A stretch of DNA of 22,373 nt from positions 1-22,373 of IMG/VR virus record IMGVR_UViG_3300025840_003224; one strand, written 5' to 3'. A program made the position numbers and the translations under genes. Below are positions 5,830 through 22,373 of the stretch, piece by piece. The notes beneath the pieces were generated by a model. It was not told the origin of the DNA. It worked only from the letters and a program-made list of their open reading frames with translations, and did not search any database. Positions within the stretch are counted from its first letter, which is position 1. Each line of letters starts with the position of its first letter. Origin of the DNA: a virus.

Positions 5830-5837
5830 TATTTATT
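5830..5837 (-). promoter_or_regulatory. late promoter box AATAAATA
   Basis: AATAAATA on the minus strand, overlapping the 3' end of the B12-binding radical SAM gene. The predicted start near 5824 gives a leader of about 31 bases ending in AAGGAG before the ATG at 5793. Confidence 0.65.
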
Positions 5838-7689: not shown

Positions 7690-8645
7690 TATTTTCCCTT
7701 AGAAAATCTTCTATCTTGATTATATGGTATATTATTTTCTAGAACATCCTTCCAAACTGCAATAGTTCTATCTAAACCTTTGCTTAATTCTACTTTAGGA
7801 ACCCATCCTAGTCTGCTTGTAATTTTATAGTTAGTACTGTTTAATAAATAAATTTCACCTGGACGAGGAGGTTTTGTATTCCAATTTACATGGCCGTCCC
7901 AGCCTAGTTTATTTGCAATAAGTTTTACATAGTCTTTTATTTTAATTGCATTGTCAGGACCTATACAAAATATTTCTCCAGCACATTCATCTGGATGTGT
8001 GATAACTGTTTCCCATGCATCTAATAAATCATCTATATAGATAAAGTTTCTGTATGGTTCTCCATATCCTAAATTTATCTCTTTAGGATTTTTAAGCATT
8101 TGAGTAATTATTTGTTCAGTAACAAAGAAATCATTATCCTTTCTGCCGTATGCATTGGTTTGCCTTATAGCAGTAAAAGGTAGTCCATAACTTCTGTGGG
8201 CATATTCTAAATACTTTTCACAGCCATATTTTGCAACGGCATAGGGGGCATTTGGATTAGGTGGTGTCGCTTCGTTAAATGCAATAATACCTTCCTCTTT
8301 GCCATCTCTAATTAAATCACTAATAGGTTGCCAGCCATATACTTCCATTGTACTTGCAAACACAAAGTTTTTTAAATTAGGTAATGTTGCGGCAATTTCA
8401 ATGAGATTTACTGTGCCTACATAATTTACTTCACTAAAAGTAATTTGCTCATAAAAACTATCTTGTACTTCTGTTCTAGCCGCCAAATGTACAATTATTT
8501 CAGGGTCAAACTGTTTAATTTGAAATCCTACTTTAGCATGGTCTCTTAAATCTTCTTTCAAAAATTCTAGTTCATGTTTGTCTTTTAATCTTTGGACCAT
8601 GTGTTGGCCTATAAAACCGTCTGCTCCTGTTATGAATATTCTCAT
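7689..8645 (-). CDS. NAD-dependent epimerase/dehydratase (extended SDR, nucleotide-sugar type)
   Basis: Cytoplasmic short-chain dehydrogenase/reductase that probably acts on a nucleotide sugar. The Rossmann motif GADGFIG (residues 7-13) binds the dinucleotide. The catalytic set is complete: Ser98/Thr99 in ASTMEVYG, and Tyr135 and Lys139 in YAVAK. Typical extended-SDR landmarks follow: HLAARTEVQDS, AYGR, NFIYIDD, and a C-terminal RPGEIYLLN segment. The length (318) is normal for UDP/GDP-sugar epimerases and 4,6-dehydratases. Which reaction it performs cannot be decided. Its ATG overlaps the stop of the sulfotransferase-like gene (ATGA), with AGGA at a suitable distance, so translation is coupled. 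Confidence 0.88.
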   Translation of the reverse strand: MRIFITGADGFIGQHMVQRLKDKHELEFLKEDLRDHAKVGFQIKQFDPEIIVHLAARTEVQDSFYEQITFSEVNYVGTVNLIEIAATLPNLKNFVFASTMEVYGWQPISDLIRDGKEEGIIAFNEATPPNPNAPYAVAKYGCEKYLEYAHRSYGLPFTAIRQTNAYGRKDNDFFVTEQIITQMLKNPKEINLGYGEPYRNFIYIDDLLDAWETVITHPDECAGEIFCIGPDNAIKIKDYVKLIANKLGWDGHVNWNTKPPRPGEIYLLNSTNYKITSRLGWVPKVELSKGLDRTIAVWKDVLENNIPYNQDRRFSKGK

Positions 8646-9274
8646 GTGTGTTCCTGTATTTTTTTAAATTTGCTATCTATATTTATAAGATCATATGTAA
8701 ACTTTTTCTCAAAAAGATAACTTTTAACAAAAGGCTTTTGATCATAGTCTTCTAAACAACTAATCTTTCCTGGATATTTTTTACATAGATCTATAATGTT
8801 TAAGTATCTATTTTGTATTTTTTTGGACATTTCTGTAAATTCTAACAGTGATATTTCTTTATCATAGGGTTCTCTATCTGAAGAATACTGCTTTGTTTTA
8901 TTTGCAATTATAGTACTATAAATTTGTGATGTAATATCTTTTCTATAATGATATATAATTTTATCAGCACATTGTAAATATTTTTCTACTAATAATTCGT
9001 CTTTTGTTTGATTAGGTATAATTCTACATACACTATTATTTAATTTATTCCAGGTATTGAAAATATAATTGTTTTTTAATTTTGTATTAAGATTGCTTAT
9101 ATCTACATTAAAATTGTTTTCAAATCTTTTATCAAATACGTTTGTACTGTGATTTAGTATTTCGCCAAAAGAATATAATTTGTTTTCTTTTGCTAATTTT
9201 AAATTTAAAAAGGTGGAACCTGTCCTAGTAAGAGTTACAATTACAGTTTTATTAGAAGACACCTTTTTCTGCAA
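8642..9274 (-). CDS. P-loop sulfotransferase-like protein
   Basis: Putative cytoplasmic sulfotransferase that would transfer sulfate from PAPS to a small molecule or glycan. The N-terminal beta strand and PAPS 5'-phosphosulfate loop read VIVTLTRTGSTFL, with Thr16-Thr21 as the loop. A second motif, YHYRKDITSQIYS (Arg111, Ser120), fits the 3'-phosphate-binding element (Arg, then Ser seven to nine residues on). The rest is divergent and Lys/Asn-rich, and at 210 residues it is small for the family, so the assignment rests on these two motifs. The start is uncertain: a TTG at 9274 or a GTG at 9262, both inside the end of the preceding oxygenase gene. It is one of the most AT-rich genes in the window. 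Confidence 0.62.
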   Translation of the reverse strand: MQKKVSSNKTVIVTLTRTGSTFLNLKLAKENKLYSFGEILNHSTNVFDKRFENNFNVDISNLNTKLKNNYIFNTWNKLNNSVCRIIPNQTKDELLVEKYLQCADKIIYHYRKDITSQIYSTIIANKTKQYSSDREPYDKEISLLEFTEMSKKIQNRYLNIIDLCKKYPGKISCLEDYDQKPFVKSYLFEKKFTYDLINIDSKFKKIQEHT

Positions 9275-9794
9275 ATCCTGTAACTTGTAATGTATATCTA
9301 TTTTGATATCCTAAATTAGCGACATGATGCTCTGCATTAGGTTTTATTACTGTAAAATCACCTTTTTTATAATCTATCCAACATTCGTTTTCCATTTCAA
9401 AATAATGCCCCATTAATCTATCCTGTAAAAATAAATTTATTCTTACAGGCTCCAATCCTTTTACATTTAATTTTTCCTGTTTTACACGTTCTTTTATTTT
9501 AAAAAGTGTATCAGTATGAGGTGCTATAAATCTACCTGGCTTGATACAATTTACAGTTGCTACACTATATTTTAAGACATCATCAAATAGATGCTTTACC
9601 TGTTGTACCCAATAATCGCAATCGCCTTCAAATACTTGATGAACCCAGGGAGCATCATGAGGATAATCAGGAACTGCTACGCCAATTCTATCCCAAAAAC
9701 CAGCACTATAAACTGTATTAGTATGTTCAGTAAATTTTATTCTATAAATCATTTCATCTGTTACAAATGAAATATCTTTATGTCCTTTAAACAT
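9252..9794 (-). CDS. Fe(II)/2-oxoglutarate oxygenase, aspartyl/asparaginyl hydroxylase-like (copy 1)
   Basis: Predicted double-stranded beta-helix oxygenase. The iron ligands are His93-x-Asp95 in APHTDT and a distal His156 or His157 in AEHHVANLG. Arg166 (YQNRYTLQV) is in the right place to bind the 2-oxoglutarate carboxylate. The segment preceding HxD is CIKPGRFI, typical of the family. It is 180 residues, essentially the bare catalytic domain. It shares the same order of motifs with the next gene upstream (9787-10281), so the two look like tandem paralogues. The genes overlap by eight bases. The substrate could be a free small molecule, a peptide or a glycan precursor; the neighbours favour a small-molecule pathway. 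Confidence 0.78.
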   Translation of the reverse strand: MFKGHKDISFVTDEMIYRIKFTEHTNTVYSAGFWDRIGVAVPDYPHDAPWVHQVFEGDCDYWVQQVKHLFDDVLKYSVATVNCIKPGRFIAPHTDTLFKIKERVKQEKLNVKGLEPVRINLFLQDRLMGHYFEMENECWIDYKKGDFTVIKPNAEHHVANLGYQNRYTLQVTGFAEKGVF

Positions 9795-10281
9795 TCTTAA
9801 GTACCGTTATTTGTGCTGAATAAAAAGGCTCCTCTCCCATATTACCTGCTATATGCCAATCATCTATACCAAACTTTACCCATTCTCCTGCTTTCCATTT
9901 AACAAAAGGTTGTTCGTGTACTTCATAATAGTGTCCACGTTTCCAGTCTTCTAAAAATATTAAGTAACGATAACTTTCACCTTCGCCATGCTCTTGTTTT
10001 AATTTAAAATGTTTATCAACATGATGTGGAATTGTTTGTCCAGGTTCTATATTAATAACACTAACAACATGATGGTCAAAGTCTTGTGGTATTTTTTTGG
10101 CTAAGTCATGCACCCATTGTGGTGAGGTTTCAAACATCTGCCATATACTGCTATTATGTTTTGTATAATATTTTTCTACAGCAGGTGTTTGTTGATAACA
10201 TTGGAAGTAATCTTCAAAGTTCAATTGACTCATCTGATTATGTGTGATACCGAAATTATCTATTTTACCATATTTAATCAC
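9787..10281 (-). CDS. Fe(II)/2-oxoglutarate oxygenase-like protein (copy 2)
   Basis: Tandem paralogue of the downstream gene. Shared blocks are IEPGQTIPHHVDKHFKLK against IKPGRFIAPHTDTLFKIK, RGHYYEVHEQ against MGHYFEMENE, and WHIAGNMG against HHVANLG. The iron ligands appear intact: His87-x-Asp89 and His143. Unlike copy 1, no Arg follows the distal His in the expected strand (the sequence is FYSAQITVL), so cosubstrate binding may differ or the protein may have a non-standard role. The start is a GTG overlapping the amidinotransferase stop codon, with only a weak AGAG ribosome binding site. An internal ATG at residue 17 is the alternative. Confidence 0.72.
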   Translation of the reverse strand: MIKYGKIDNFGITHNQMSQLNFEDYFQCYQQTPAVEKYYTKHNSSIWQMFETSPQWVHDLAKKIPQDFDHHVVSVINIEPGQTIPHHVDKHFKLKQEHGEGESYRYLIFLEDWKRGHYYEVHEQPFVKWKAGEWVKFGIDDWHIAGNMGEEPFYSAQITVLKNV

Positions 10282-11335
10282 AATAACTCTCTAAAGTTCC
10301 TCTACGTCTAAGATCTAAAGTAGCACAATGTATACCGCCAGAGAGCGTCATAGAGTGACGGAACTGTACAGGTACACTATCTATACCGTACTTGTCAAGT
10401 TCCCTCATCAGAGGCTCTTGTGCTGAGTCTAATACTACTGTATTCTCATCTACACTTAATAAGTTCATACCAATGTATGGTGAACAGGGTGGCATGTAAC
10501 CTTCATCTGCTAATTTACTTCCTTGTACAACACAGTCATCAAACCAAATCTTATCCCACTTTGCAAACATTTCAGGGCAGTTATCTGGTGTTACTCTTGA
10601 ACTGTTCATTAGAACTAGTCCAGGTCTTAGTGGAACAATAGTGCTATCAAAATGTGCAAAACTATAGAGTTCACTATAATGCATTTTGTAACCCATTGGC
10701 TCTAATAATCTTTTTAGCCATTTATAACCTTTCATGTTTCCTGAGTTACTGACTTGATATAATAAGTCTCTACCAACTCTAACAATATTAGGTGCATCAA
10801 AACATATCTCATGATTCAATAATGTTGGTTTGTTTTCAATGTCTTCAAAAGTGTACATGTCGTCATGTAGTTTTGGCTTAGGTGCAGAAAACCATAATGC
10901 ACCATCTTCAAATGCTTCGTACATTATGTCTTCATATAATCTTGTTTCAAAATATCTTGCTCTTACAGGAGTAGGTGTTTCAATAAGCATATCACCTAAT
11001 GGCAGTATCAAGTCTCTGGGACACCAACTGTACCAGCCTTTTGTGTTCCATCCTTGACCTATATCGTAATTCTTTTTGTCCCAATCTATAATTTTAGGAC
11101 GGTGTACAATAACACCTAAATCTTCTAATGCTTTTGCAAGTCCGTCTGCATCTTCATTGGCTTCATCAATTACCCATTGTGGGTAAGTGCCTTCTAATTT
11201 TTCTACGTCTTCTTTTGGGAAATTTGCATAACTGAAACTTCTTGCTGAAATATCAGTTGCTATTCTGCTGTGGTGGGCATGTCCAACGATGATCTCTTCC
11301 AATGGGTCCCAATCGTTGTGTGAATTAACTATCAT
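10274..11335 (-). CDS. amidinotransferase (glycine / inosamine-phosphate amidinotransferase family)
   Basis: Predicted to move an amidino group from arginine to an amine acceptor, making a guanidino compound plus ornithine. The guanidine-modifying fold is complete: it opens with NSHNDWDPLEEIIVG, and the catalytic triad is visible as Asp190 (VGRDLLYQ), His228 (FAHFDST) and Cys337 (SGGIHCATLDLRR). The length of 353 matches bacterial members such as StrB-type enzymes. The acceptor (glycine, an aminocyclitol, an amino sugar or other) cannot be read from sequence. It is the first gene of the island's long minus-strand unit, with a late box at 11371-11378 and TAGGAG ahead of its ATG. By eye it is less AT-rich than its neighbours, which suggests a separate origin. 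Confidence 0.9.
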   Translation of the reverse strand: MIVNSHNDWDPLEEIIVGHAHHSRIATDISARSFSYANFPKEDVEKLEGTYPQWVIDEANEDADGLAKALEDLGVIVHRPKIIDWDKKNYDIGQGWNTKGWYSWCPRDLILPLGDMLIETPTPVRARYFETRLYEDIMYEAFEDGALWFSAPKPKLHDDMYTFEDIENKPTLLNHEICFDAPNIVRVGRDLLYQVSNSGNMKGYKWLKRLLEPMGYKMHYSELYSFAHFDSTIVPLRPGLVLMNSSRVTPDNCPEMFAKWDKIWFDDCVVQGSKLADEGYMPPCSPYIGMNLLSVDENTVVLDSAQEPLMRELDKYGIDSVPVQFRHSMTLSGGIHCATLDLRRRGTLESYCD

Positions 11336-11370
11336 TTGTGTGTCTCCTAAGTATAGTTATAATATGCTAC

Positions 11371-11378
11371 TATTTATT
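11371..11378 (-). promoter_or_regulatory. late promoter box AATAAATA for the amidinotransferase unit
   Basis: AATAAATA on the minus strand, followed after about 35 bases by the amidinotransferase ATG, with TAGGAG in the predicted 30-base leader. The box shares one base with the TAA stop of the PLP-enzyme-like gene (11378-11380). It probably drives the six genes down to 5833. Confidence 0.65.
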
Positions 11379-12256
11379 TAACAATCACCTAACCAGTCTG
11401 AAATACAGACTCTATAGTTACCAGTTACGCCTCTGTTAAATTCTGAATGCCTGATATCATCTCCTAATCCAAATATCATTGTATCAGTCCAAACTAAATC
11501 TTCGTTTTGACAAATTGTTTCATATAAGTCTCTGTATTTTTCCCAATTATAATCAGGAGAAAAGTTACGCATATATTCTACACCTAATGCCATACTATAA
11601 TTATTTTGCATTTTTACTTCATTGAGCATACTAACACCATCATCTACATAATCTTTTGTAAATCGTACGCCTACTCTGTGATTTTCCAGAGTGAAAAATG
11701 GCTTACTTAAACTACATGTAACTTCTTTAATAGCAGGAAAATCATTTAAATCTATATGTACATGTTTTGCTATTCCCCAATATGCTAAATCCAAACATAC
11801 AGGTATGTCCATAACATTACAGACTTGCATTATGTGTTCAAAGTCAGGATGTATGCAACCAAAGTCGCTGAAAGGCGCACTGATTAATAATGCATGTAGA
11901 CCTGGACCTTGTAATATACTTTCCAAATGATGTGGGGAATGTAAGTTTTGAAATTGTACATGTTTACCTAGACAGGCATGATATTGAAAATCTCCATTTA
12001 AAACAATTATTTCTCTATCCTTACTATGTCTTAAAATAAACTGATCAAACGTTTGACTAGTCCCTTGAGTATAATCTACATGAGTAAATTTTTCTAAACC
12101 TCTTAAAGATTTGGTATTTGAATAGTTTATCCATTCTCTCCAGACTTTTTCATATTCCAAAAGTGTTACATTCTTCAAATCATTACTATCTAAGTGCCAA
12201 TGAAAATCCTGTATCTCTTTATTCCTAACCGGTCTTGCTCCTCTAACTGCAGGCAT
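11378..12256 (-). CDS. short fold-type I PLP enzyme-like protein (aminotransferase-like)
   Basis: Probably an aminotransferase relative. CLDLAYWG (Asp156, Tyr159) fits the Asp that contacts the PLP pyridine nitrogen, and CSLSKPF (Lys185) fits the Schiff-base lysine. HRVGVRF follows, where class I/II aminotransferases have a conserved Arg-Gly block. YTQGTSQTF near residue 62 may contact the cofactor phosphate. At 292 residues it is about 100 shorter than usual, and the segment after the lysine is brief, so the small C-terminal domain is reduced. It could be an active minimal enzyme or a catalytically altered descendant. AAGGAG seven bases before the ATG supports the start. It overlaps the glycosyltransferase gene by 14 bases, so it is co-transcribed with it. 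Confidence 0.62.
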   Translation of the reverse strand: MPAVRGARPVRNKEIQDFHWHLDSNDLKNVTLLEYEKVWREWINYSNTKSLRGLEKFTHVDYTQGTSQTFDQFILRHSKDREIIVLNGDFQYHACLGKHVQFQNLHSPHHLESILQGPGLHALLISAPFSDFGCIHPDFEHIMQVCNVMDIPVCLDLAYWGIAKHVHIDLNDFPAIKEVTCSLSKPFFTLENHRVGVRFTKDYVDDGVSMLNEVKMQNNYSMALGVEYMRNFSPDYNWEKYRDLYETICQNEDLVWTDTMIFGLGDDIRHSEFNRGVTGNYRVCISDWLGDC

Positions 12257-13628
12257 CGTTCAACTCCTTAAAAAAGTTTTCATTACTTTTTCTTCTAAAT
12301 TTTCCTTCAACTAAATGGTTATAATTGAAATTAACACTCTCTTTTGTTTGTTCTAATAGTTCTTGATACTTTGCAGGACTTAGATTTCTTATATATTCAA
12401 ATACCGTAAAGAAACCTTTTACTCTTTCATATAATGTATCTGCTTCATTAAAATTTACAGGCCAGCAGTCATCATATGTTTTAAAATCTATATTTTTTAA
12501 TTCCTCATATATACCTTTACATCCAAAAGTTATATAAGGTTTTTTAAATACCATTGGTATAAATTGCTTTTCATCTACATATCCATATCCATATGGTTCT
12601 CCGCCAGGGGAAATTACTATATCACAATCTTCATATAACCAATGGCCTGGTATACCTCTATCATCTATATTTTTCATATCTATTATATGAGGACGACTCA
12701 TAAGATTATTCATCATTTGTTTTATAAAACTGTCTTCTAATTTTTCTTTGTGTAATAATTGATTTAAACTTGTTGATATTAATTCTATATGATATGGGTA
12801 TTCATCTTTTGTATTTTGATTATTTGCAATTTTCATAAGATCAGTTGGTCTTAAACTATAAAATCTTCCGTATGTAATATCTTCTAAACCTATTGCACTA
12901 TTTTCTAACATTGTAGAAAACAATAGTCTATGAGCTCTGCAATTTCTTAATGTACAAACAAATTTATTAGGCACAATATTATATAGTGACTTTTCTCTAT
13001 TACTCATTGATCTATCTATTTCCATATGTACATTATTAAACTCTTCGTTCTCAGATAAAAATGTCATATAATGAACTCTATCAAAATACCAAAGTTTATG
13101 TATTTTATGCACGTTAGGTACTCTACTTGTATGTGTTGTGAAGTGCCCAAAATAATCTTCTGTTTCCCCTGAACCACTTAGAACAATATTAATATGAGGA
13201 TTACTTGCCCCAAGTTCTGCAAAATATATATTTGCATCATAGAAATATGGCTCAGTGCTAGAATAAAATAAAAATGTTAAATTAGGTAAATTTAAAGAAA
13301 GTATTTGTTGTACAATTTTATCTATTTCAATACCAAAATGTGATAACTCATAATACTTACGATTTTCTATAGTAATAGGAAAACTTTGTGTATCTATAGG
13401 CACAAGAGTTATTTCGTCTTTATTACATTTACTTACGTCACCATTATTAATAATATTAATATCAAATAACTCGTCAAACGGATTAAAGTTTTGTTCTAAC
13501 TCTATTTGTGTTAAAACATGTAATGGTAAAGGCTCACGACCAGTCCAGCCTAATGACTTGTGCTGTTCTAGTGCTTCTTTACTAAATTGAAACCCGTCTT
13601 CTAAATAAAATATATTAATATTTTTCAT
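12243..13628 (-). CDS. putative glycosyltransferase
   Basis: Probably a GT-B-like glycosyltransferase, judged mainly from its second half. FVCTLRNCRAHRLLFSTML resembles the start of the donor domain in phage and bacterial transferases. The segment around 355-395 (GGEPYGYGYVDEKQFIPMVF, then KKPYITFG, then YEELKNIDFKTY) has the EK-with-following-hydrophobics and distal Gly pattern seen in fucosyltransferase/exostosin-like families. The N-terminal 200 residues are not recognised. No signal peptide or membrane span is seen, so it is cytoplasmic. The ATG lies nine bases after the encoded CCA of tRNA-Ser, with AGGA straddling that junction as ribosome binding site. It is transcribed behind the tRNA from the late box at 13736-13743. 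Confidence 0.55.
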   Translation of the reverse strand: MKNINIFYLEDGFQFSKEALEQHKSLGWTGREPLPLHVLTQIELEQNFNPFDELFDINIINNGDVSKCNKDEITLVPIDTQSFPITIENRKYYELSHFGIEIDKIVQQILSLNLPNLTFLFYSSTEPYFYDANIYFAELGASNPHINIVLSGSGETEDYFGHFTTHTSRVPNVHKIHKLWYFDRVHYMTFLSENEEFNNVHMEIDRSMSNREKSLYNIVPNKFVCTLRNCRAHRLLFSTMLENSAIGLEDITYGRFYSLRPTDLMKIANNQNTKDEYPYHIELISTSLNQLLHKEKLEDSFIKQMMNNLMSRPHIIDMKNIDDRGIPGHWLYEDCDIVISPGGEPYGYGYVDEKQFIPMVFKKPYITFGCKGIYEELKNIDFKTYDDCWPVNFNEADTLYERVKGFFTVFEYIRNLSPAKYQELLEQTKESVNFNYNHLVEGKFRRKSNENFFKELNDACS

Positions 13629-13637
13629 AATTTTTCC

Positions 13638-13727
13638 TGGCGGAGAGTGAGGGATTCGAACCCTCGAACCAGTTACCCGGTTAACACCTTAGCAGGGTGC
13701 CGCTTTCGACCACTCAGCCAACTCTCC
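13638..13727 (-). tRNA. tRNA-Ser (anticodon GCU), CCA encoded
   Basis: A complete type II tRNA. The acceptor stem is GGAGAGT with ACTCTCC, discriminator G, CCA encoded at 13638-13640. The anticodon stem GCACC/GGTGT holds loop CTGCTAA with anticodon GCU at 13691-13693. There is a long serine-type variable arm (AACCGG paired with CTGGTT) and a T arm GAGGG-TTCGAAT-CCCTC. It reads AGU and AGC codons; AGU is used often in the neighbouring virion genes. Its promoter box ends eight bases before the 5' end, predicting a primary transcript with only about three extra 5' bases. Confidence 0.97.
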
Positions 13728-13735
13728 AGTTTAAA

Positions 13736-13743
13736 TATTTATC
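13736..13743 (-). promoter_or_regulatory. late promoter box GATAAATA for tRNA-Ser and following genes
   Basis: GATAAATA on the minus strand. T4 geometry puts +1 near 13730, three bases before the mature tRNA 5' end. It is divergent from the box at 13773-13780, so this 60-bp gap is a two-way late promoter region. Confidence 0.7.
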
Positions 13744-13772
13744 GGAGTTATATACATACATAATTTTTTTAC

Positions 13773-13780
13773 GATAAATA
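13773..13780 (+). promoter_or_regulatory. late promoter box GATAAATA, five bases before ATG
   Basis: GATAAATA followed by TTAAA and the ATG of the plus-strand radical SAM gene. There is no Shine-Dalgarno; the upstream sequence is a T run and then the box. The predicted +1 is the A of the ATG. Confidence 0.75.
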
Positions 13781-13785
13781 TTAAA

Positions 13786-14871
13786 ATGGCATACCTTACA
13801 GATACAATTAAAAGAGTTCATGTAGAATTAACTGATAAATGTAATGCTCAATGTCCTGGTTGTGTGAGAACACATGCGGGAGGAGTAATGAATCCAATTA
13901 TTAAAAACCAACAACTGGGTTTAGATTTTTTTAAAAATAAATTAGGTAACGATTTTTGTTCTAATATCGTCCATTGGGATTTCTGTGGAACCAAAGGAGA
14001 TGCTGTAAGTAATTCTGAACTATTAGATATTTTAGAGTTTTTATTAATTTGTAATGAAAACACAATTATACGATTGCACACTAACGGGGGCCTACGAAAT
14101 ACAGAATGGTTTGAAAAATTAGGCAATTTATTTAAAGAAAGAAAATGCACTTGTATTTTTGCTGTAGATGGTTTAGAAGACACAAATCATATCTACAGGA
14201 AAAATGTAAAATGGAAAAAAGTCTGGGAAAATATGTTAGCATATAATAAAACAGGAGCGAAAACAAATGCAAATTTTTTAAAATTTAGACACAATGAACA
14301 CCAGATAGAAGAACTACAGATGCTTTGTAAAAGACATAGAATAAAATTACATGTTAAAACACCATATGGATTTAATGAAACTGATAAAACTATAGAAACG
14401 ATGCCGGTGCATAATGTTGACGGTACATTTGCATATTCAATTTTTCCTAATACAGAATATACAAATGGTCGAAAAATAAAAGATCCTAAAATTATTCCTA
14501 ATAAAAATTACAAACCGGGCAAATATAATATTAAAGATTTTATACAAGAATTAGAAAATGTATCTAGAATAAATTGTAAAATAAGTGAAGGTACTACTGC
14601 AAATTTATATATAGACAGTGACGGTGCTTTACTTCCTTGTTGTTATATTGCTAGTTCTTTAAATATGGGAGATGAGCAAATGACATCTTTAATAGGCAAT
14701 CGTCAAAATTTAATACCCAGTGAAAGTAATTCAGTACAAAATATTTTAGAAAGTCATTTCTTAAGTAGTACATTAGAAAAAGGTATAAAAGGAAACTTAG
14801 AAACTAAAGAAAAATACTGCATTACATGTGTCAAAGCATGTGAAATAAATACAGGATTTACAAAACGATAA
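13786..14871 (+). CDS. radical SAM protein with SPASM-like C-terminal cysteines
   Basis: Predicted S-adenosylmethionine radical enzyme. The cluster motif is CNAQCPGC (Cys19, Cys23, Cys26), right after the first strand (RVHVELTDK), as in SPASM/Twitch-family enzymes. Core landmarks include FCGTKGDA near 67, RLHTNGG near 96-102 and a later IFAVDGLED. The C-terminus holds a second cysteine set (Cys264, Cys285-Cys286, Cys345, Cys348, Cys352) suited to an auxiliary iron-sulfur cluster. Such enzymes act on peptides, sugars or aminocyclitols; the substrate is unknown. It is the only island gene on the plus strand. It starts five bases after a late box, and its TAA stop lies inside the gp14 promoter box, so it is tightly packed with the virion genes downstream. 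Confidence 0.85.
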   Translation: MAYLTDTIKRVHVELTDKCNAQCPGCVRTHAGGVMNPIIKNQQLGLDFFKNKLGNDFCSNIVHWDFCGTKGDAVSNSELLDILEFLLICNENTIIRLHTNGGLRNTEWFEKLGNLFKERKCTCIFAVDGLEDTNHIYRKNVKWKKVWENMLAYNKTGAKTNANFLKFRHNEHQIEELQMLCKRHRIKLHVKTPYGFNETDKTIETMPVHNVDGTFAYSIFPNTEYTNGRKIKDPKIIPNKNYKPGKYNIKDFIQELENVSRINCKISEGTTANLYIDSDGALLPCCYIASSLNMGDEQMTSLIGNRQNLIPSESNSVQNILESHFLSSTLEKGIKGNLETKEKYCITCVKACEINTGFTKR

Positions 14872-14879: not shown

Positions 14880-15941
14880 ATGCCTAAATTAAGTTTATGG
14901 AACCCAGTCAAAACAAATGACTACAATTTCACTGATAGAATTGTCGGAGAGCACCTTTATGCCGGTGGTACCGGTGTACATATACACAAATACTTAGGGG
15001 TACATACAACTCCAGACGAAGGAGACCCTACAAGACCTAGTAGTGCGGCAAATGATACAGAGGTTTTTATACAAGACTTACTATTTTTAGAAAATAGAGA
15101 TAGAAAATATGATAAAGATATTTACGAACTACGTGGTCAATATAATATAGGCGATAATGATGCCTTTGACCTAACACAATTTGGTATGTTTTTAGCCAAC
15201 GATACGTTGTTTATGAATTTCCATATAGAAAGCATGGTAGAAGCAGTTGGCAGAAAATTAATGGCAGGTGATGTATTAGAATTACCTCATTTAAGAGACG
15301 ACTTGTTACTAGGTAGTGATGAAGCAATAAACAGATATTATGTAGTTACTGATGCTAGTAGACCTGCAGAAGGGTATGACCCACGTTGGTGGCCACATCT
15401 TTGGAGAGTAAAATTAGGTCCTATAACAGATTCACAAGAGTACAGAGATATACTTGGTACTGGTGAAGAGGAAGAAGATTTAAGAAATCTAATTAGTACA
15501 TACGCAAATGATATTAATATAAATGATAAACTTTTAGAACAAGCAGAAAAAGATGTACCTTTTGATCCACAATATAGAAATACAACACATTTATATTTTG
15601 ATGAAACAGTTCCTGACAAACCAAGTATAGACTTTGGGGGAGCAGATGGCACACCTGTAAACGGATTAAGTTTAGTTGGCAGTGGAGCAACGTTCCCAAT
15701 AAGTGGAACGACTGACGGTGATTACTTCTTGAGGACAGACTTTAGTCCTAATAGACTATTTAAAAAATCTGGTACACGTTGGTTAAATGTTGGTACAGAC
15801 GGCAGAAAAGCCTGGTCGGCGGCAAATAGAATACTTGCTACATTTATTAATAACGATAATATTACAAATGAAAGTGACGGCACTAAAGCAAATGAAAAAA
15901 CAAATTTAAGTAAGGTTATTAAGCCTAGGACAGATAACTAA
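14880..15941 (+). CDS. 14: neck protein (gp14-like)
   Basis: Head-tail neck protein of the T4 type. The order of blocks follows T4 gp14: a FTDRIVGEHLYAGGTGVHIH region matching the T4 VAESIQMRGV segment, then DLTQFGMFLANDTLFMNFHI (T4: SNFGMQVQDEVTLSIN). Next are KLMAGDVLELPHLRDDL (T4: EPKEGDLIYFPMDNSLF) and the Trp/Pro-rich RWWPHLWRVKLGPITDSQEY. At 353 residues it is longer than T4 gp14 (256). The extra C-terminal part (about residues 260-305) contains a GDYFLRTD module with a following TRWLNVG strand, similar to modules in gp18 and gp15 here. The gene begins a plus-strand unit (gp14, gp15, Nudix) with predicted leaderless start. Confidence 0.8.
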   Translation: MPKLSLWNPVKTNDYNFTDRIVGEHLYAGGTGVHIHKYLGVHTTPDEGDPTRPSSAANDTEVFIQDLLFLENRDRKYDKDIYELRGQYNIGDNDAFDLTQFGMFLANDTLFMNFHIESMVEAVGRKLMAGDVLELPHLRDDLLLGSDEAINRYYVVTDASRPAEGYDPRWWPHLWRVKLGPITDSQEYRDILGTGEEEEDLRNLISTYANDININDKLLEQAEKDVPFDPQYRNTTHLYFDETVPDKPSIDFGGADGTPVNGLSLVGSGATFPISGTTDGDYFLRTDFSPNRLFKKSGTRWLNVGTDGRKAWSAANRILATFINNDNITNESDGTKANEKTNLSKVIKPRTDN

Positions 15942-17293
15942 TGGCGGGTAAAAATTTAGATTACTGGTACGACGAACAGATAAAACGTTATCTACTTCAA
16001 GTTATTAGAATATTTTCTAACTTCAAAGTAAGAGAATATACACAAGATGGAGTAAAGTATAATCGTGTTCCAGCAAGATATGGTGATGCTAGTAGAATGG
16101 TAGCAAATATATTGCGTAATAATTCAGAAAATGTTATTAATAGTGCTCCTTTTATTAGTGTTACAATACAAAGTATACAACCAGCAAGAGATAGAATAGC
16201 AGAACCTTTTTTTGTGGATACAAATCAAATAGCAGAAAGAGAATTTAATAAAGAAACAGGAACATACTCTTCTGAACAAGGAAACTTATACTCAACACAA
16301 AGATATATGCCTGTTCCATATAATTTAACAGTTAATGTTGATATTTGGACTACTAATACTGATACTAAATTACAAGTATTAGAACAAATATTTGTTTTAT
16401 TTAATCCAAGCATACAGTTACAGTCTAATAGTAACCCTTTAGATTGGACCAGTGTATTTGAAGTTGAACTTACAGATATTGCTTGGAGTAGTAGAGGTAT
16501 CCCAGCAGGTGTAGATGAAAATTTAGATATATCAACTTTAACATTTGCGTTACCTATTTGGATAAGTCCTCCAGCAAAAGTAAAAAGACAAACTATTATA
16601 CAAGAAATTATAAATAATGTTCATTCAATATCAGATATTTCTGAACTAGGGTATAGCCAAGATTATGCAGATTTCTTTGGTTCAATAGAAGATACATTTG
16701 AAATTGTTACAACACCAGGAGATTATAAAGTTCAAGTTATAGGTTCTTCTGCTACACTAGTAGAACAAGATGGTACCGAAGTAAAATGGTCCAGTATAAT
16801 AGAACAACTTGGAGAAATAAGATCAACAAGTTTACTTAAATTAAATATTAGCGGAGACTCAAATAATTTATTAAACTTGGTATATGGCACCGTAACTAAA
16901 AATCCAACAAGTGATACATCATTAATTTTTAATTTAGATACAGACACACTACCTACAAATACACTTTCTGCTGTGGATAAAATTATAGATCCTAGAGCGA
17001 ATTACCCTGGAGACGGTACCCTAGCGGCCGCTACTAACGGGCAAAGATACTTAATTACAGAAGAAATTACAAAATCAGGATATACCAATTGGGACGTAGA
17101 TGCCGGAGAAAACGATATTATACAATACAACGGTTCTGCTTGGACTGTAGTATTTGATGCTAGTGCCAGTGGTAGTGATATACATTATATAAACAATACG
17201 TTTACAACCAAACAATATAAATGGACAGGCAAAGCCTGGATAAGTAGTTATGAAGGAGAATACAATCCAGGATTTTGGAGACTTAGTTTATAA
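15941..17293 (+). CDS. 15: tail terminator / sheath stabiliser (gp15-like)
   Basis: Protein that caps the tail tube and sheath and joins the tail to the head. The N-terminus matches the T4 gp15 pattern: YDEQIKRYLLQVIRIFSNFKV (T4 NSSFRRYATLMGDLFSNIQI), then VPARYGD, then the APFISVTIQ strand. Later blocks are MPVPYNLTVNVDIWTTNTD with LEQIFVLFNP (T4 SPIKMIYELSIFTRYEDD, EQILPYFQP) and TFALPIWISPP near 200. At 450 residues it is much longer than T4 gp15 (272). The C-terminal addition (about 230-450) includes an NGQRYLI...YNGSAWTVVFD module and KQYKWTGKAWISS, akin to the inserted modules of gp18 and gp14. The start overlaps the gp14 stop (TAATG), so translation is coupled. Confidence 0.85.
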   Translation: MAGKNLDYWYDEQIKRYLLQVIRIFSNFKVREYTQDGVKYNRVPARYGDASRMVANILRNNSENVINSAPFISVTIQSIQPARDRIAEPFFVDTNQIAEREFNKETGTYSSEQGNLYSTQRYMPVPYNLTVNVDIWTTNTDTKLQVLEQIFVLFNPSIQLQSNSNPLDWTSVFEVELTDIAWSSRGIPAGVDENLDISTLTFALPIWISPPAKVKRQTIIQEIINNVHSISDISELGYSQDYADFFGSIEDTFEIVTTPGDYKVQVIGSSATLVEQDGTEVKWSSIIEQLGEIRSTSLLKLNISGDSNNLLNLVYGTVTKNPTSDTSLIFNLDTDTLPTNTLSAVDKIIDPRANYPGDGTLAAATNGQRYLITEEITKSGYTNWDVDAGENDIIQYNGSAWTVVFDASASGSDIHYINNTFTTKQYKWTGKAWISSYEGEYNPGFWRLSL

Positions 17294-18365: not shown

Positions 18366-18671
18366 TCAATAAATCTTTCTTACATCATAGCCAACAGGAT
18401 TAACCACTTTAATTTCGTGTTTTACGCCTAATAAATCTGTAAAGATAATATGTTTGGTTGTTATTTTTTTAATTTTTTTAGCACGATATGTCTTAGGCGC
18501 ATCTTTTTGTATTGTTGTTCCATCTGGTAATATTTTAAGATCACCAGGAAAGAAAACAGTGATTTCCCACTCTTCTCTTATAAGTGTACGCCACCAATGT
18601 TTTATCTTAGCCCATAGACTAACTTTAATTAAAACTTCTTCTTCTTTTTGCTGTATGTTATCCTGTGCCAT
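18366..18671 (-). CDS. small conserved-looking phage protein of unknown function
   Basis: A 101-residue soluble protein. After a Gln/Glu-rich start it has a Trp-rich helix (SLWAKIKHWWRTL), then beta-strand-like sequence EITVFFPGDLKILPDGTTI, KTYRAKKIKKITTKHIIF, and the ending NPVGYDVRKIY. The strand-rich part looks like a small barrel; from memory similar small proteins occur in T4-like cyanophages, which I cannot verify here. I choose the ATG at 18671 over a GTG at 18686 because that GTG lies inside the promoter box, while the ATG follows GATAAATA at exactly five bases like five other genes in this window. Function unknown. Confidence 0.65.
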   Translation of the reverse strand: MAQDNIQQKEEEVLIKVSLWAKIKHWWRTLIREEWEITVFFPGDLKILPDGTTIQKDAPKTYRAKKIKKITTKHIIFTDLLGVKHEIKVVNPVGYDVRKIY

Positions 18672-18676
18672 ATTAT

Positions 18677-18684
18677 TATTTATC
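18677..18684 (-). promoter_or_regulatory. late promoter box GATAAATA, five bases before ATG
   Basis: GATAAATA on the minus strand followed by ATAAT and the ATG at 18671. It overlaps the adenylate cyclase stop codon (TGA, 18683-18685). There is no Shine-Dalgarno. Confidence 0.7.
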
Positions 18685-20752
18685 ACTTGGTTGTTTTACG
18701 CATAACTCCGTCCCAATCGCCTTTAGGCATTGGTTGTTTAATACGTTCTGCATATAATTCTGTTAAAACAGGATTCCAATTATGTTGATTCATTATTTCT
18801 ATTTGATGTGCAACTGTGCTCCATTCTCTGTTTTGATATGCATCTACCATTCTATTAATGACCCTTGCTTCTTTATGGTCTTTTAAAATAGTATAAATTG
18901 TGACCGGTGCAGTTTGTCCTTTTACAGCAATTTTATCTAACATAACTAAATTTTCAGGTAATTTTATTTGTTTTAGTGTATGCTCAGTAAACATAAAGAA
19001 CACTCCATATTCTTTTGTTTGTGCTTCTAATCTAGCCGCTAAGTTTACACTATCGCCTAATACAGTATAATCGAATCGTTGATTACTTCCCATGTTACCT
19101 ACAACTGCATCACCTGTGTTTATGCCTATACCAACACCTAATTCCATTAAGCCATCTGCTTTTAATTCTTTATTTAACTTTTCTAACTCTACTTCCATTT
19201 CCTGTGCTGTTTCAACCGCCAACTGAGCGTGGTTTTCTATATCAAGTGGTGCTCCCCAAATAGCCATTAGAGCATCACCTATATATTTGTCTATTGTTCC
19301 TTCTTTTTGCATAACAAGATCTGTCATAGGCGTCATATATCTGTTTATAAGTTTACCCAAACCTTGTGGATCAGTTTTAAACTGTTCTGAAATAGGGGTG
19401 AACCCTCTGATATCTGAAAACAAATAAGTCATTGTTTTTGTATCGCCACCTAATTTAAGCAAACTTGGATCTTTTTGTAATTTTTTAACCATTGCCGGAG
19501 CAAGGTAATGTTCGAATTGTTTCTTTATTTGCTCACGTAATTTAAACTGCTTGTAAAAGTTATTAAATGCGGCCTGTGTAAATATTAAAAATCCAGCAAG
19601 TACAGGAAATGTTGCATCTAATAATACCAAACTACTTGTATATTTGTGTATACTATAATATGCTATACCACCTAATACTGCTAAAGCCATAGGTGCTGTT
19701 AAAAGCAAAGGTAATCTATATACTGCTAAAGCAACAAGAACCATAGTCAGTAACCCTACTAGAAGCTCTATGATAGCACTCAATTGACTTCTTGTTATAT
19801 TACTACCATCTATAAAGTTCTGTAGCATATGAGCTTGTATATGTTGAGGATATAAGTTTCCTCTAGGTGTAGGTACAGGATTTGCAATACCCTCTGCTGT
19901 AACACCTACTATTACAAACTTACCTGCTAAATCAGGTATGCTTTCTGCACCTTCATATTCTATTTCAGTAAATGTGTTATTAAAACGTATATATGCAGTT
20001 CCGTTTGGTTGTGTTACTATGGGGTCAAAGGGCGGAACTGCAACTTCCTGTATTCCTATCTCACTTGTTTTAATTATGTAACTGGGTTTACCTGTTTTTA
20101 CTCTTAACATTTCCACAGCAAAAGAGGGATATATTTTATCTTCCACAGTTATGGCAAGTGGATATGTTCTTGTTTGATTATCTGGTTGTGGTGCAGAAGC
20201 ATTAACACCTTTACCATTACTTGTAACTTCTAGCATTGGTACGTTAGTAATTAAATTTGGCCAGGTAAGTAAATAGTCTTTTGCAGGAACTGGACCTATC
20301 GTGCCTGTGCCTATATGTGGGCCTGTTGATTTTATACCTTTTACACTTGGTGTTTGGCTCAATACATTGTAGTTTACAGGATTCTTTCTGGCTCCAGGAA
20401 CATTCATTACGTTTTGATTCATCATACTTGCAAAACTTTCATCTCCCTGAAATCTATCTTTTTCAGGAAACATAATTGTCCAACCCAAAACACCACCATT
20501 TTTCATAGCAACGTCTACTACCATTTGAGCATAGTATTGTCTAGGAAAAGGATATTGTCCGTATTTTGCTAAACTTTTTTCGCCAATATTAATTAGTACA
20601 ACATCATCACTTTGTACTATTTCATCTAATTGTTGGTAACTGTCAAAAACTTGACCACGTAAACTTTGTAAAGGCGTAGGGTCTACTACCCTTAGTGCGA
20701 GTAATAGTACAATTGATACTGCTACTGCGTACCCGCTATATAACCATTTCAT
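18683..20752 (-). CDS. membrane-bound CHASE2-domain class III adenylate cyclase
   Basis: Predicted inner-membrane enzyme making cAMP from ATP. A first span (about 7-22) leads into an extracytoplasmic CHASE2 sensor domain (about 25-325; VVLINIGEKSLAKYGQYPFPR, later GKFVIVGVTAEGI and YPQHIQAHMLQNFI). Three spans follow (about 325-345, 347-366, 374-393), then a short helical linker and the cyclase domain. Catalytic residues are all present: metal-binding Asp447 (FSDIRGF) and Asp493 (DKYIGDALMAIWG), ATP-selecting Lys489 and Thr563, and transition-state Asn570 and Arg574 (VNLAARLE). The length of 689 matches bacterial CHASE2 cyclases, so nothing is missing. The ATG is five bases after a late box with no Shine-Dalgarno. 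It is a complete signalling receptor of bacterial type inside a phage late region, which is very unusual. Confidence 0.93.
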   Translation of the reverse strand: MKWLYSGYAVAVSIVLLLALRVVDPTPLQSLRGQVFDSYQQLDEIVQSDDVVLINIGEKSLAKYGQYPFPRQYYAQMVVDVAMKNGGVLGWTIMFPEKDRFQGDESFASMMNQNVMNVPGARKNPVNYNVLSQTPSVKGIKSTGPHIGTGTIGPVPAKDYLLTWPNLITNVPMLEVTSNGKGVNASAPQPDNQTRTYPLAITVEDKIYPSFAVEMLRVKTGKPSYIIKTSEIGIQEVAVPPFDPIVTQPNGTAYIRFNNTFTEIEYEGAESIPDLAGKFVIVGVTAEGIANPVPTPRGNLYPQHIQAHMLQNFIDGSNITRSQLSAIIELLVGLLTMVLVALAVYRLPLLLTAPMALAVLGGIAYYSIHKYTSSLVLLDATFPVLAGFLIFTQAAFNNFYKQFKLREQIKKQFEHYLAPAMVKKLQKDPSLLKLGGDTKTMTYLFSDIRGFTPISEQFKTDPQGLGKLINRYMTPMTDLVMQKEGTIDKYIGDALMAIWGAPLDIENHAQLAVETAQEMEVELEKLNKELKADGLMELGVGIGINTGDAVVGNMGSNQRFDYTVLGDSVNLAARLEAQTKEYGVFFMFTEHTLKQIKLPENLVMLDKIAVKGQTAPVTIYTILKDHKEARVINRMVDAYQNREWSTVAHQIEIMNQHNWNPVLTELYAERIKQPMPKGDWDGVMRKTTK

Positions 20753-20757
20753 ATCGA

Positions 20758-20765
20758 TATTTATC
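20758..20765 (-). promoter_or_regulatory. late promoter box GATAAATA, five bases before the cyclase ATG
   Basis: GATAAATA on the minus strand followed by TCGAT and ATG at 20752. The box overlaps the 3' end of the secreted-protein gene. There is no Shine-Dalgarno; a leaderless cyclase mRNA is predicted. Confidence 0.75.
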
Positions 20766-21312
20766 GTATTTTATTGCATTCCTGTTTGGCTTTTTCAAGT
20801 AATCTAAAGTTATTTGCAACAACAATTGAATATAACATATTAGTATTATTTAATTCGTCTGGTGTTACCTGTGTCCAATAATCATCATATAATAATCCAG
20901 GAAGGATTAAAAAACTTTTGGTTGCTATAATTCTAAAATCGCTTGGACGTTCTGTGTATAGTGGATTGATTTCTTTTACACAATCATATTTTAATGCTCG
21001 TGATGTCGAGTAAGCATCTAATACTTGAAATGTCCAAAATGCTAGCCATTGTTTGTTAGTTGCACGTGGTACCATATCAAATACAGGATAGTTTTTGCTC
21101 TCTAGGTTTTTGCAAAGTTCAGGATTGTTATCACAAAAATATGGATCTAGTGGGGGATTATAAGTAAGGTCTAATACTCTACCTTCCGGTAAGTATGCTG
21201 GACTAATAACAATTTCCTCTGCTGTTAAAAACAGAGGAAATGCTAATGTTATGATTAAAAGTAATCTACTCACAGTCTTCAGGTTTCTTGGAGCAATATT
21301 CTTTAATTGCAT
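20761..21312 (-). CDS. secreted or membrane-associated protein of unknown function
   Basis: The N-terminus carries a signal peptide (basic start, hydrophobic core SRLLLIITLAFPLFL, cleavage likely after LTA). The mature part has two Cys-containing segments (FCDNNPELC, later DCVKEINPLY) and a hydrophobic stretch FWTFQVLDAYSTSRAL. The Asp-Ala-x-x-Thr plus ExNPLY pattern recalls small membrane proteins of the DUF5658 sort, but that is a weak resemblance. FLILPGLLYDDYW follows. The start is uncertain: the ATG at 21312 overlaps the preceding reading frame by 47 bases. A GTG at 21273 overlaps it by only eight and still leaves a complete signal peptide. It precedes the adenylate cyclase, whose sensor domain would face the same compartment. 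Confidence 0.6.
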   Translation of the reverse strand: MQLKNIAPRNLKTVSRLLLIITLAFPLFLTAEEIVISPAYLPEGRVLDLTYNPPLDPYFCDNNPELCKNLESKNYPVFDMVPRATNKQWLAFWTFQVLDAYSTSRALKYDCVKEINPLYTERPSDFRIIATKSFLILPGLLYDDYWTQVTPDELNNTNMLYSIVVANNFRLLEKAKQECNKIR

Positions 21313-21481
21313 CTTCTAAAAGTTTATCTTTCAATAACTCTTTTAGAACTTTATTTTGCAATATAAGTTCTTTAATATCCTCTTCAGTTACCTGCTCACT
21401 CTCTTTCGAGGGTGAGTCTATGCCTTTTTGTTTTTCGTTCTGTTTTAAAAACTTAAAAGGTTTAAAGAATGAGCTAGTTAC
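21266..21481 (-). CDS. 71-codon reading frame without a start, likely -1 frameshift extension of the lipoprotein
   Basis: An open frame begins exactly at the end of the upstream lipoprotein gene and has no ATG or GTG. Only two internal TTG codons could start it. It encodes a basic segment (FFKPFKFLKQNEKQKG), an acidic linker and a probable coiled coil (EEDIKELILQNKVLKELLKD), ending EYCSKKPEDCE. Its stop overlaps a possible GTG start of the next gene (GTGAGTAG), as expected of real coding sequence. The upstream gene ends in A_AAA_AAG directly before its TAA. A -1 slip there reads straight into this frame, giving a 177-residue product. The alternatives are a miscounted A-run in the assembly or a TTG-started small gene. 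Confidence 0.5.
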   Translation of the reverse strand, partial: VTSSFFKPFKFLKQNEKQKGIDSPSKESEQVTEEDIKELILQNKVLKELLKDKLLEDAIKEYCSKKPEDCE

Positions 21482-21798
21482 TTTTTTGGCTCTTCTTTAG
21501 GTTCTTCTTGTAAAGCATCAGTTTGATTGTTGACTTCATCAGCAACAACTTGTACTAAACCAGCACCGGTATCAGCCGCAGTTTGGACTAATCCAACACC
21601 TACTTCTGCTGTAGTTTGAACTACACTACCGACATCATTTGCAACTGAACTAACAATACCACTTGCTGTACCTGTTACAGTATCAAGTGTGTCTGTTGCA
21701 AGTTTTTGTCCGCCATCGATTACTGTACCAACTGTAGCACAACCTTGAGCGAAAACAACAAAGAATATACCTAAGAACGCATTTTTAAATTTGTTCAT
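21478..21798 (-). CDS. small lipoprotein with 11-residue repeats
   Basis: A 106-residue predicted lipoprotein. The signal peptide is MNKFKNAFLGIFFVVFAQG with Cys20 as likely lipidation site; the lipobox (FAQGC) is slightly non-canonical. The mature part is low in complexity and contains a repeat of about 11 residues (VGSVVQTTAE, VGVGLVQTAAD, TGAGLVQVVAD), suggesting a long amphipathic helix. It ends in an acidic Glu-Pro-Lys tail (EEPKEEPKK). It has AAGGAG before the ATG and a late box 54 bases upstream. Lipoproteins in phage late regions are sometimes spanin components or superinfection factors; nothing here proves either. The final codons form a frameshift-type slippery heptamer. Confidence 0.7.
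   Translation of the reverse strand: MNKFKNAFLGIFFVVFAQGCATVGTVIDGGQKLATDTLDTVTGTASGIVSSVANDVGSVVQTTAEVGVGLVQTAADTGAGLVQVVADEVNNQTDALQEEPKEEPKK
21481..21487 (-). promoter_or_regulatory. candidate -1 ribosomal frameshift site A_AAA_AAG
   Basis: On the minus strand the lipoprotein gene ends CC[A AAA AAG] TAA. The heptamer is in the zero frame required for tandem -1 slippage and is followed at once by the stop codon. The -1 frame stays open for 71 codons. A hairpin with a GAAA loop (21395-21416) lies downstream but 64 bases away, further than usual stimulators. Confidence 0.5.
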
Positions 21799-21866: not shown

Positions 21867-22181
21867 TTAGAATCCTAATCTATCGTTTGAAGCATTTCCA
21901 AACATACTATGCTCATCGTGTAACATTAACTGCCACGTTAATACATCTTTTGTGATTGGATTATCTGCTTCACTGATTTGTTTTATCAATCTCAATCTAG
22001 TGCCAACTTCTACTTCATATGTTATTTCACACCATAAAAATAACAGATAAAAAATTGCTGGAGGAACAACAATAAACATTAGAACATGTGGAAATAGCCA
22101 ACCTAATGCTACTAGGTGAACTCCTAAGATAGCCATAGCATAGTTTCTCAAACTGTTTGTGTGCTTAGTAACGTGGCTCAT
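21867..22181 (-). CDS. small membrane protein of unknown function
   Basis: A protein of about 104 residues. One or two spans cover AMAILGVHLVALGWLFPHVL and MFIVVPPAIFYLLFLW, followed by a soluble C-terminus (VEVGTRLRLIKQISEAD, ending ASNDRLGF). I place the start at 22181 because GGAG lies three bases before that ATG. An in-frame ATG at 22202 has no ribosome binding site. The start overlaps the stop of the upstream membrane protein by 17 bases, so the two are co-transcribed. No family is recognised. Confidence 0.6.
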   Translation of the reverse strand: MSHVTKHTNSLRNYAMAILGVHLVALGWLFPHVLMFIVVPPAIFYLLFLWCEITYEVEVGTRLRLIKQISEADNPITKDVLTWQLMLHDEHSMFGNASNDRLGF

Positions 22182-22373
22182 AATCTCCAAACATGTCTTC
22201 ATAATCGTTTACTAATACAAACGGTCTAATGTGCGGATCGTACCCTGTAGGTTCAAACAAATAGATAGGTGTATACGGCCAATCTATGCCTTCACGTTGT
22301 GCATAATTATATACCATATAATATGCTATGAATAACCACAACGAGGGCACAACTAATAAAAATAATACGAAAA
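22165..22373 (-). CDS. membrane protein, truncated by the window edge
   Basis: The frame is open to the right edge of the window. A GTG at 22350 could start it. But the seven complete codons before that GTG are strongly hydrophobic (FVLFLLV) and extend the span LWLFIAYYMVYNY into a full transmembrane helix, so the true start is probably outside the window. The C-terminus is short and soluble (REGIDWPYTPIYLF, ending EDMFGDYEPRY). Function unknown. The stop overlaps the next gene's start by 17 bases. Confidence 0.5.
   Translation of the reverse strand, partial: FVLFLLVVPSLWLFIAYYMVYNYAQREGIDWPYTPIYLFEPTGYDPHIRPFVLVNDYEDMFGDYEPRY

Follow-up and report, generated by a model that had tools for sequence, protein, structure and literature searches.

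What does a membrane-bound cyclase do among the virion genes of a phage, and what would read the signal that it makes? The question is raised by the window, a stretch of 22,373 nucleotides covering positions 1 to 22,373 of the IMG/VR virus record IMGVR_UViG_3300025840_003224, in which a gene for a CHASE2-class III cyclase has T4-like virion genes (gp15, tail sheath and head-tail adaptor) as neighbours. The preferred answer, with a probability of about 0.6, is that this catalytically competent receptor is the inner-membrane output end of a phage curli/FecR module, expressed late and making cAMP under envelope control. Read from sequence, this answer draws on intact domains and catalytic residues, purifying selection, a late-type leaderless element, linkage to CsgG and FecR in phages, and linkage of FecR to CHASE2 in bacteria. 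The features involved are as follows.

18366..18671, minus strand: 101-aa ORF downstream of the cyclase, preceded by a separate leaderless GATAAATA promoter (18684-18677); present in some relatives
18683..20752, minus strand: CHASE2-class III adenylate cyclase, 689 aa (ORF list, Pfam, residues, model)
18887..19438, minus strand: cyclase catalytic domain, residues 439-622, with the Lys/Thr purine pair (Pfam PF00211, Guanylate_cyc, E 3e-20)
19739..20710, minus strand: CHASE2 sensor domain, residues 15-338 (Pfam PF05226, E 3.6e-31)
20758..20765, minus strand: T4-late-type promoter element GATAAATA, 5 nt before the cyclase ATG (leaderless); conserved in relatives
20761..21312, minus strand: 183-aa protein upstream of the cyclase, with an N-terminal hydrophobic or signal segment (ORF list, hydropathy)
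21478..21798, minus strand: predicted lipoprotein, 106 aa, signal segment followed by Cys; many relatives also have it upstream of the cyclase
21867..22202, minus strand: small membrane protein, 111 aa (ORF list, relatives)
22165..22371, minus strand: membrane-protein ORF, incomplete because the window ends inside it (match to a spacer gene in relatives)

The initial annotation had described a complete CHASE2 domain joined to a class III cyclase with named catalytic residues and four membrane spans, and this description is confirmed by Pfam, a residue check and an AlphaFold2 model. Both Pfam matches lie well beyond the curated cut-offs. D447, K489, D493, T563, N570 and R574 were all found at exactly the positions given, and the class III set of metal-binding (two Asp), purine-binding (Lys and Thr) and transition-state (Asn and Arg) residues is complete in the 689-aa protein. 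The K489-D493 and T563-N570-R574 spacing, together with the Lys/Thr pair, corresponds to what we take to be the class IIIb pattern, as for CyaC. The solved sequences and folds closest to the catalytic domain are those of Cya2, CyaC and CyaB. The AlphaFold2 model, built on a 41-row alignment (mean pLDDT 87), places helices at residues 7-23, 325-346, 349-374 and 381-413 as four predicted membrane helices framing an extracytoplasmic CHASE2 domain, three of which were recovered by the hydropathy scan alone. Pfam and the model together indicate the architecture of a CHASE2 receptor, in which an N-terminal helix is followed by CHASE2, three more helices and a cytoplasmic output. Lys489 predicts ATP as the substrate, and the product would be cAMP; a guanylate cyclase is disfavoured by the invariance of Lys489 in 104/104 phage sequences.

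The initial annotation had also proposed a leaderless late promoter, and this proposal gains support from comparison with relatives. The GATAAATA element occupies -13 to -6 relative to the cyclase ATG. In T4, the late element acts at -13 to -6; were this one to behave likewise, +1 would be the A of this ATG. An identical 5-nt spacing between element and ATG is kept in 63 of the 66 relatives with enough upstream sequence (1.96 expected by shuffling), while the other three carry CTAAATA at the promoter position, and the upstream sequence around the conserved element diverges. The bare count of ATAAATA in the window is uninformative because the sequence is AT-rich, and the fixed spacing to a start codon is the only informative quantity. 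ATAAATA stands exactly 5 nt before an ORF at 6/16 sites in the window, at 5/9 sites in a 25.8-kb stretch of HTVC008M, at 2/20 in a further 50 kb of the same phage and at 0/25 in 41 kb of T4 late genes. The leaderless sites of the window lie at 13786, 14880 and 17733 on the plus strand and at 20752, 18671 and 4376 on the minus strand. Most relatives outside the clade of the window lack an element of their own at the cyclase. A brief literature search found no description of leaderless late genes with ATAAATA 5 nt before the ATG.

Elsewhere in the window, a tailoring-type cluster (5833-14871) lies between the neck/sheath and gp15 genes and is partly kept in many relatives; by eye, it contains a B12-type radical SAM protein, an NAD epimerase, 2OG-oxygenase-like and aminotransferase-like proteins, a radical SAM protein and tRNA-Ser. 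The tail sheath (925 aa, 83-2860) and the gp15-like stabiliser (450 aa, 15941-17293) are unusually long compared with those of T4.

At its right end, the window breaks off within a series of genes for small membrane proteins and lipoproteins, and the initial annotation could not see what follows because the window stops just before it. In the relative L005, whose cyclase is 95% identical, the order is CsgG, curlin, FecR and a second curlin, and then the small membrane and lipoprotein genes. The partial ORF at 22165..22371 matches the L005 spacer gene between curlin/FecR and the cyclase, also found in L028 and L004, and the L005 homologue of the 183-aa upstream protein gives a sub-threshold DUF5658 match. 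The window ends short of the curli/FecR position, which is occupied by the module genes in L005 and L016; with relatives up to 95% identical, curli and FecR genes probably stand beside the window's own cyclase as well. FecR and curlin genes accompany the cyclase in all 48 phage contigs that reach 5 kb or more upstream of it, and CsgG in 45 of them, the remaining three being cut or reaching the flank limit near FecR. A separate scan seeded with CsgG, covering the best 80 contigs nearest the HTVC008M-type CsgG and so speaking for that group, found FecR and the cyclase in 25/25 contigs with at least 5 kb downstream.

A module of type VIII secretion system (T8SS), FecR and adenylate cyclase has been described in pelagiphages (Wittmers et al. 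2022, PMC9599517), and the curli genes of phage Melnitz have also been described (Buchholz et al. 2022, PMC9004378). In podophages, a histidine kinase is reported to precede CsgF in the module. The initial annotation had held that no characterised phage system of this kind was known; this claim fails because the pelagiphage module is published, and the cyclase is annotated in both HTVC008M and Melnitz. The window cyclase is probably a new member of this known phage curli-secretion module, and its last gene. The new points worth following are the reassortment of sensor and catalytic halves among phages, the old pairing of FecR with CHASE2, and the missing receptor.

The linkage to CsgG could also be read in terms of lysis, with the cyclase timing it or controlling the CsgG pore, and cAMP signalling that envelope assembly is finished. 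The phage CsgGF proteins have been proposed as a gated lysis pore (Buchholz et al., PMC9004378), and in the clade of the window lipoprotein and small membrane genes lie between curli and cyclase. However, none of the genes in the module was recognised as a lysis gene, and the retention of curlin-repeat genes in 48/48 modules with enough flank is more in keeping with the secretion of fibres than with a pore alone, which makes this an unlikely account.

The module at the output end of which the cyclase is placed in the preferred reading includes FecR, which was interpreted as the ferric-citrate regulator by Wittmers et al. (PMC9599517). The L005 phage FecR has PF04773 as its sole match (residues 64-156), and phage FecRs have at most an N-terminal signal-like segment, with no further hydrophobic helix. 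The phage FecR is thus predicted to be a secreted protein in which the FecR domain alone is recognised, and it lacks the combination of anti-sigma domain, one transmembrane helix and periplasmic FecR domain that defines an E. coli-type anti-sigma FecR.

Bacterial genomes point to CHASE2 as the partner of FecR. Among 115 alphaproteobacterial genomes, CHASE2 occurs in 47/54 with FecR versus 5/61 without it (Fisher 9e-19), and FecR lies within 8 kb of CHASE2 in 28/61 cases among the matches listed for alphaproteobacteria, versus about 0.4% by chance. A SAR11-order genome (G115:C1, L334:3549-8419) encodes a CHASE2 protein with a non-cyclase output two genes before FecR, that is, the same sensor-partner pair with a different output. 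By eye, this output resembles a SpoIIE-type phosphatase, and the operon also contains a TPR/barrel-like protein. In Campylobacterota, too, genes for CHASE2 cyclases and a FecR protein are clustered (PMC9239204). The pairing of FecR with CHASE2 in bacteria is an old one. Curli genes were found near none of the bacterial CHASE2 cyclases in 80 loci with flanks of up to about 8 kb, and a search for CsgG in seven CHASE2-carrying bacterial genomes gave one marginal match. Combined with the FecR-CHASE2 pairing, this absence makes the phage module look like curli secretion added to an old pair. Finally, loss of CHASE2 leaves CyaD1 of S. meliloti making cAMP constitutively (PMC5498481), which suggests, by analogy, that CHASE2 restrains the cyclase.

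The proposed mechanism would be one of release. CHASE2 would face the periplasm and hold the dimeric cyclase off; the state of the FecR/curlin/CsgGF apparatus would lift this restraint, and cAMP would be made once the apparatus is assembled or engaged. That FecR or curlin gates CHASE2 is inferred, as is the effect downstream.

The fate of the cAMP is the next question. The initial annotation had named reprogramming of host catabolism first among its ideas; in this reading, the phage would raise cAMP to act through the host CRP. An intact cyclase with a late promoter element would suit such a role, and cAMP-CRP control is a textbook function in enterobacteria. Against this, no class III cyclase was detected in 147 SAR11-order genomes, and a cNMP-binding match appeared in 10 of the 147, with weak scores and nearly all in an 870-aa frame. 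Assignment to this order rested on four 16S probe sites that we take to mark SAR11, all four of which match exactly in two genomes. A phage-encoded receptor is likewise missing, with no cNMP-binding domain in 12 phage records, two complete genomes included, and a gene switched on late would have little time to change host transcription. The scans weaken the CRP route to the point of being quite improbable, with the proviso that SAR11 are the usual hosts and may not be the host of the window phage. The usual SAR11 hosts seem to lack a standard cAMP receptor on which the output step could act.

Interference of cAMP with nucleotide-signal defences (CBASS, Pycsar, Thoeris) has only general plausibility in its favour and is very improbable, given that neither the curli/FecR linkage in every contig with enough flank nor an extracytoplasmic sensor would be expected of a cytoplasmic counter-defence.

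The cyclase belongs to phages, as the initial annotation had argued in rejecting a passive host fragment. The search that it proposed, for phage CHASE2 plus cyclase near T4-like virion genes, was carried out as two scans of viral contigs and returned well over 100 homologues from many samples, up to 100% identical; by tblastn, two isolates carry homologues too, namely HTVC008M (37% over 87%) and Melnitz (32% over 100%). The median dN/dS, 0.07 for the cyclase and 0.11 for CHASE2, indicates strong purifying selection. That the gene is decayed, a passive piece of host DNA or the product of a chimeric assembly can be dismissed, having nothing in favour besides the metagenomic origin and being ruled out by more than 100 non-redundant intact phage homologues, the two isolates, the dN/dS of 0.07 and the grouping of the phages on one side of a branch from bacteria in both protein halves.

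Among 104 non-redundant phage sequences, D447, K489, D493 and R574 are kept in all, and N570, like the full catalytic set, in 95. At position 563, 57 sequences have Ser, 38 (the window protein included) have Thr and nine have Asp, and all nine Asp563 sequences, of the Melnitz type, carry Ser570. Because of this Asp563/Ser570 variant, the phage members are not all necessarily standard adenylate cyclases, and the variant, itself under strong purifying selection (cyclase dN/dS 0.046), may use a different substrate. Its members (L074-L080, L174, L176, L178, L182 and Melnitz, L082) are found beneath several CHASE2 lineages.

The initial annotation had further called for a tree of the cyclase with bacterial homologues. 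Quick maximum-likelihood trees of 105 rows, made separately for the two halves, divide phages from bacteria by one branch (support 99 for the sensor half and 98 for the catalytic half). Within phages, the halves disagree: the Asp/Ser type is one clade by the catalytic half (support 100) and falls in five places by the sensor half. Trees constrained to unite the Asp/Ser rows were rejected by the sensor data (AU p 8e-88), and trees constrained to unite the rows with window-type CHASE2 were rejected by the cyclase data (p 7e-6), for groups named after the trees had been seen. Identity between the L074 protein and the window protein is about 90% across CHASE2 and 45% across the cyclase; against Melnitz, the values are about 30% and about 80%, with the break near residue 400. 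This form is shared by several contigs from different samples. Judged from these alignments and trees, sensor and catalytic halves have been swapped among phages, with a breakpoint near residue 400.

That the cyclase is so strictly tied to an amyloid secretion module encoded by widespread marine phages suggests that a new envelope sensor is supplied to the infected cell. A wider and more tentative idea is that marine phages equip hosts lacking both a class III cyclase and a CRP-type receptor with a complete new cAMP circuit for sensing the envelope. The catalytic halves would be swappable beneath a shared sensor, and the cAMP, or the product of the Asp/Ser variant, might be read by an unknown receptor or exported. 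The absence of a standard cAMP receptor from SAR11-order genomes and phages sharpens the question of what reads the signal, while the half-swapping and the old FecR-CHASE2 pairing point to concrete partners.

Among known systems, the pelagiphage T8SS module (PMC9599517) shares, judging by the relatives of the window, the CsgF-CsgG-curlin-FecR-curlin-cyclase order, occurs in marine T4-like phages and shows the same alphaproteobacterial affinity. The clade of the window differs from it in that several genes for small membrane proteins and lipoproteins separate curlin from cyclase, and in that the cyclase has a leaderless late promoter element of its own. Neither the reassortment of halves nor the bacterial FecR-CHASE2 pairing figures in the discussion of that paper, as far as its available text goes. 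The cyclases of HTVC008M (AGE60353) and Melnitz also combine CHASE2 with a class III cyclase downstream of curli genes, but are 32-37% identical to the window protein; the former lacks the C-terminal tail and the latter carries the Asp563/Ser570 catalytic variant. Bacterial CHASE2 cyclases, such as S. meliloti CyaD1 and those of the Campylobacterota CHASE2-AC/FecR/TPR clusters, share the architecture and the FecR neighbourhood, differ in the curli-free surroundings noted above, and include relatives about 28-38% identical to the window protein. Finally, the class IIIb enzymes CyaC (1WC0-1WC6) and CyaB (3R5G) have the same metal, purine and transition-state set and a matching catalytic fold (TMt 0.82-0.89), whereas their sensor domains differ from the CHASE2 of the window protein.
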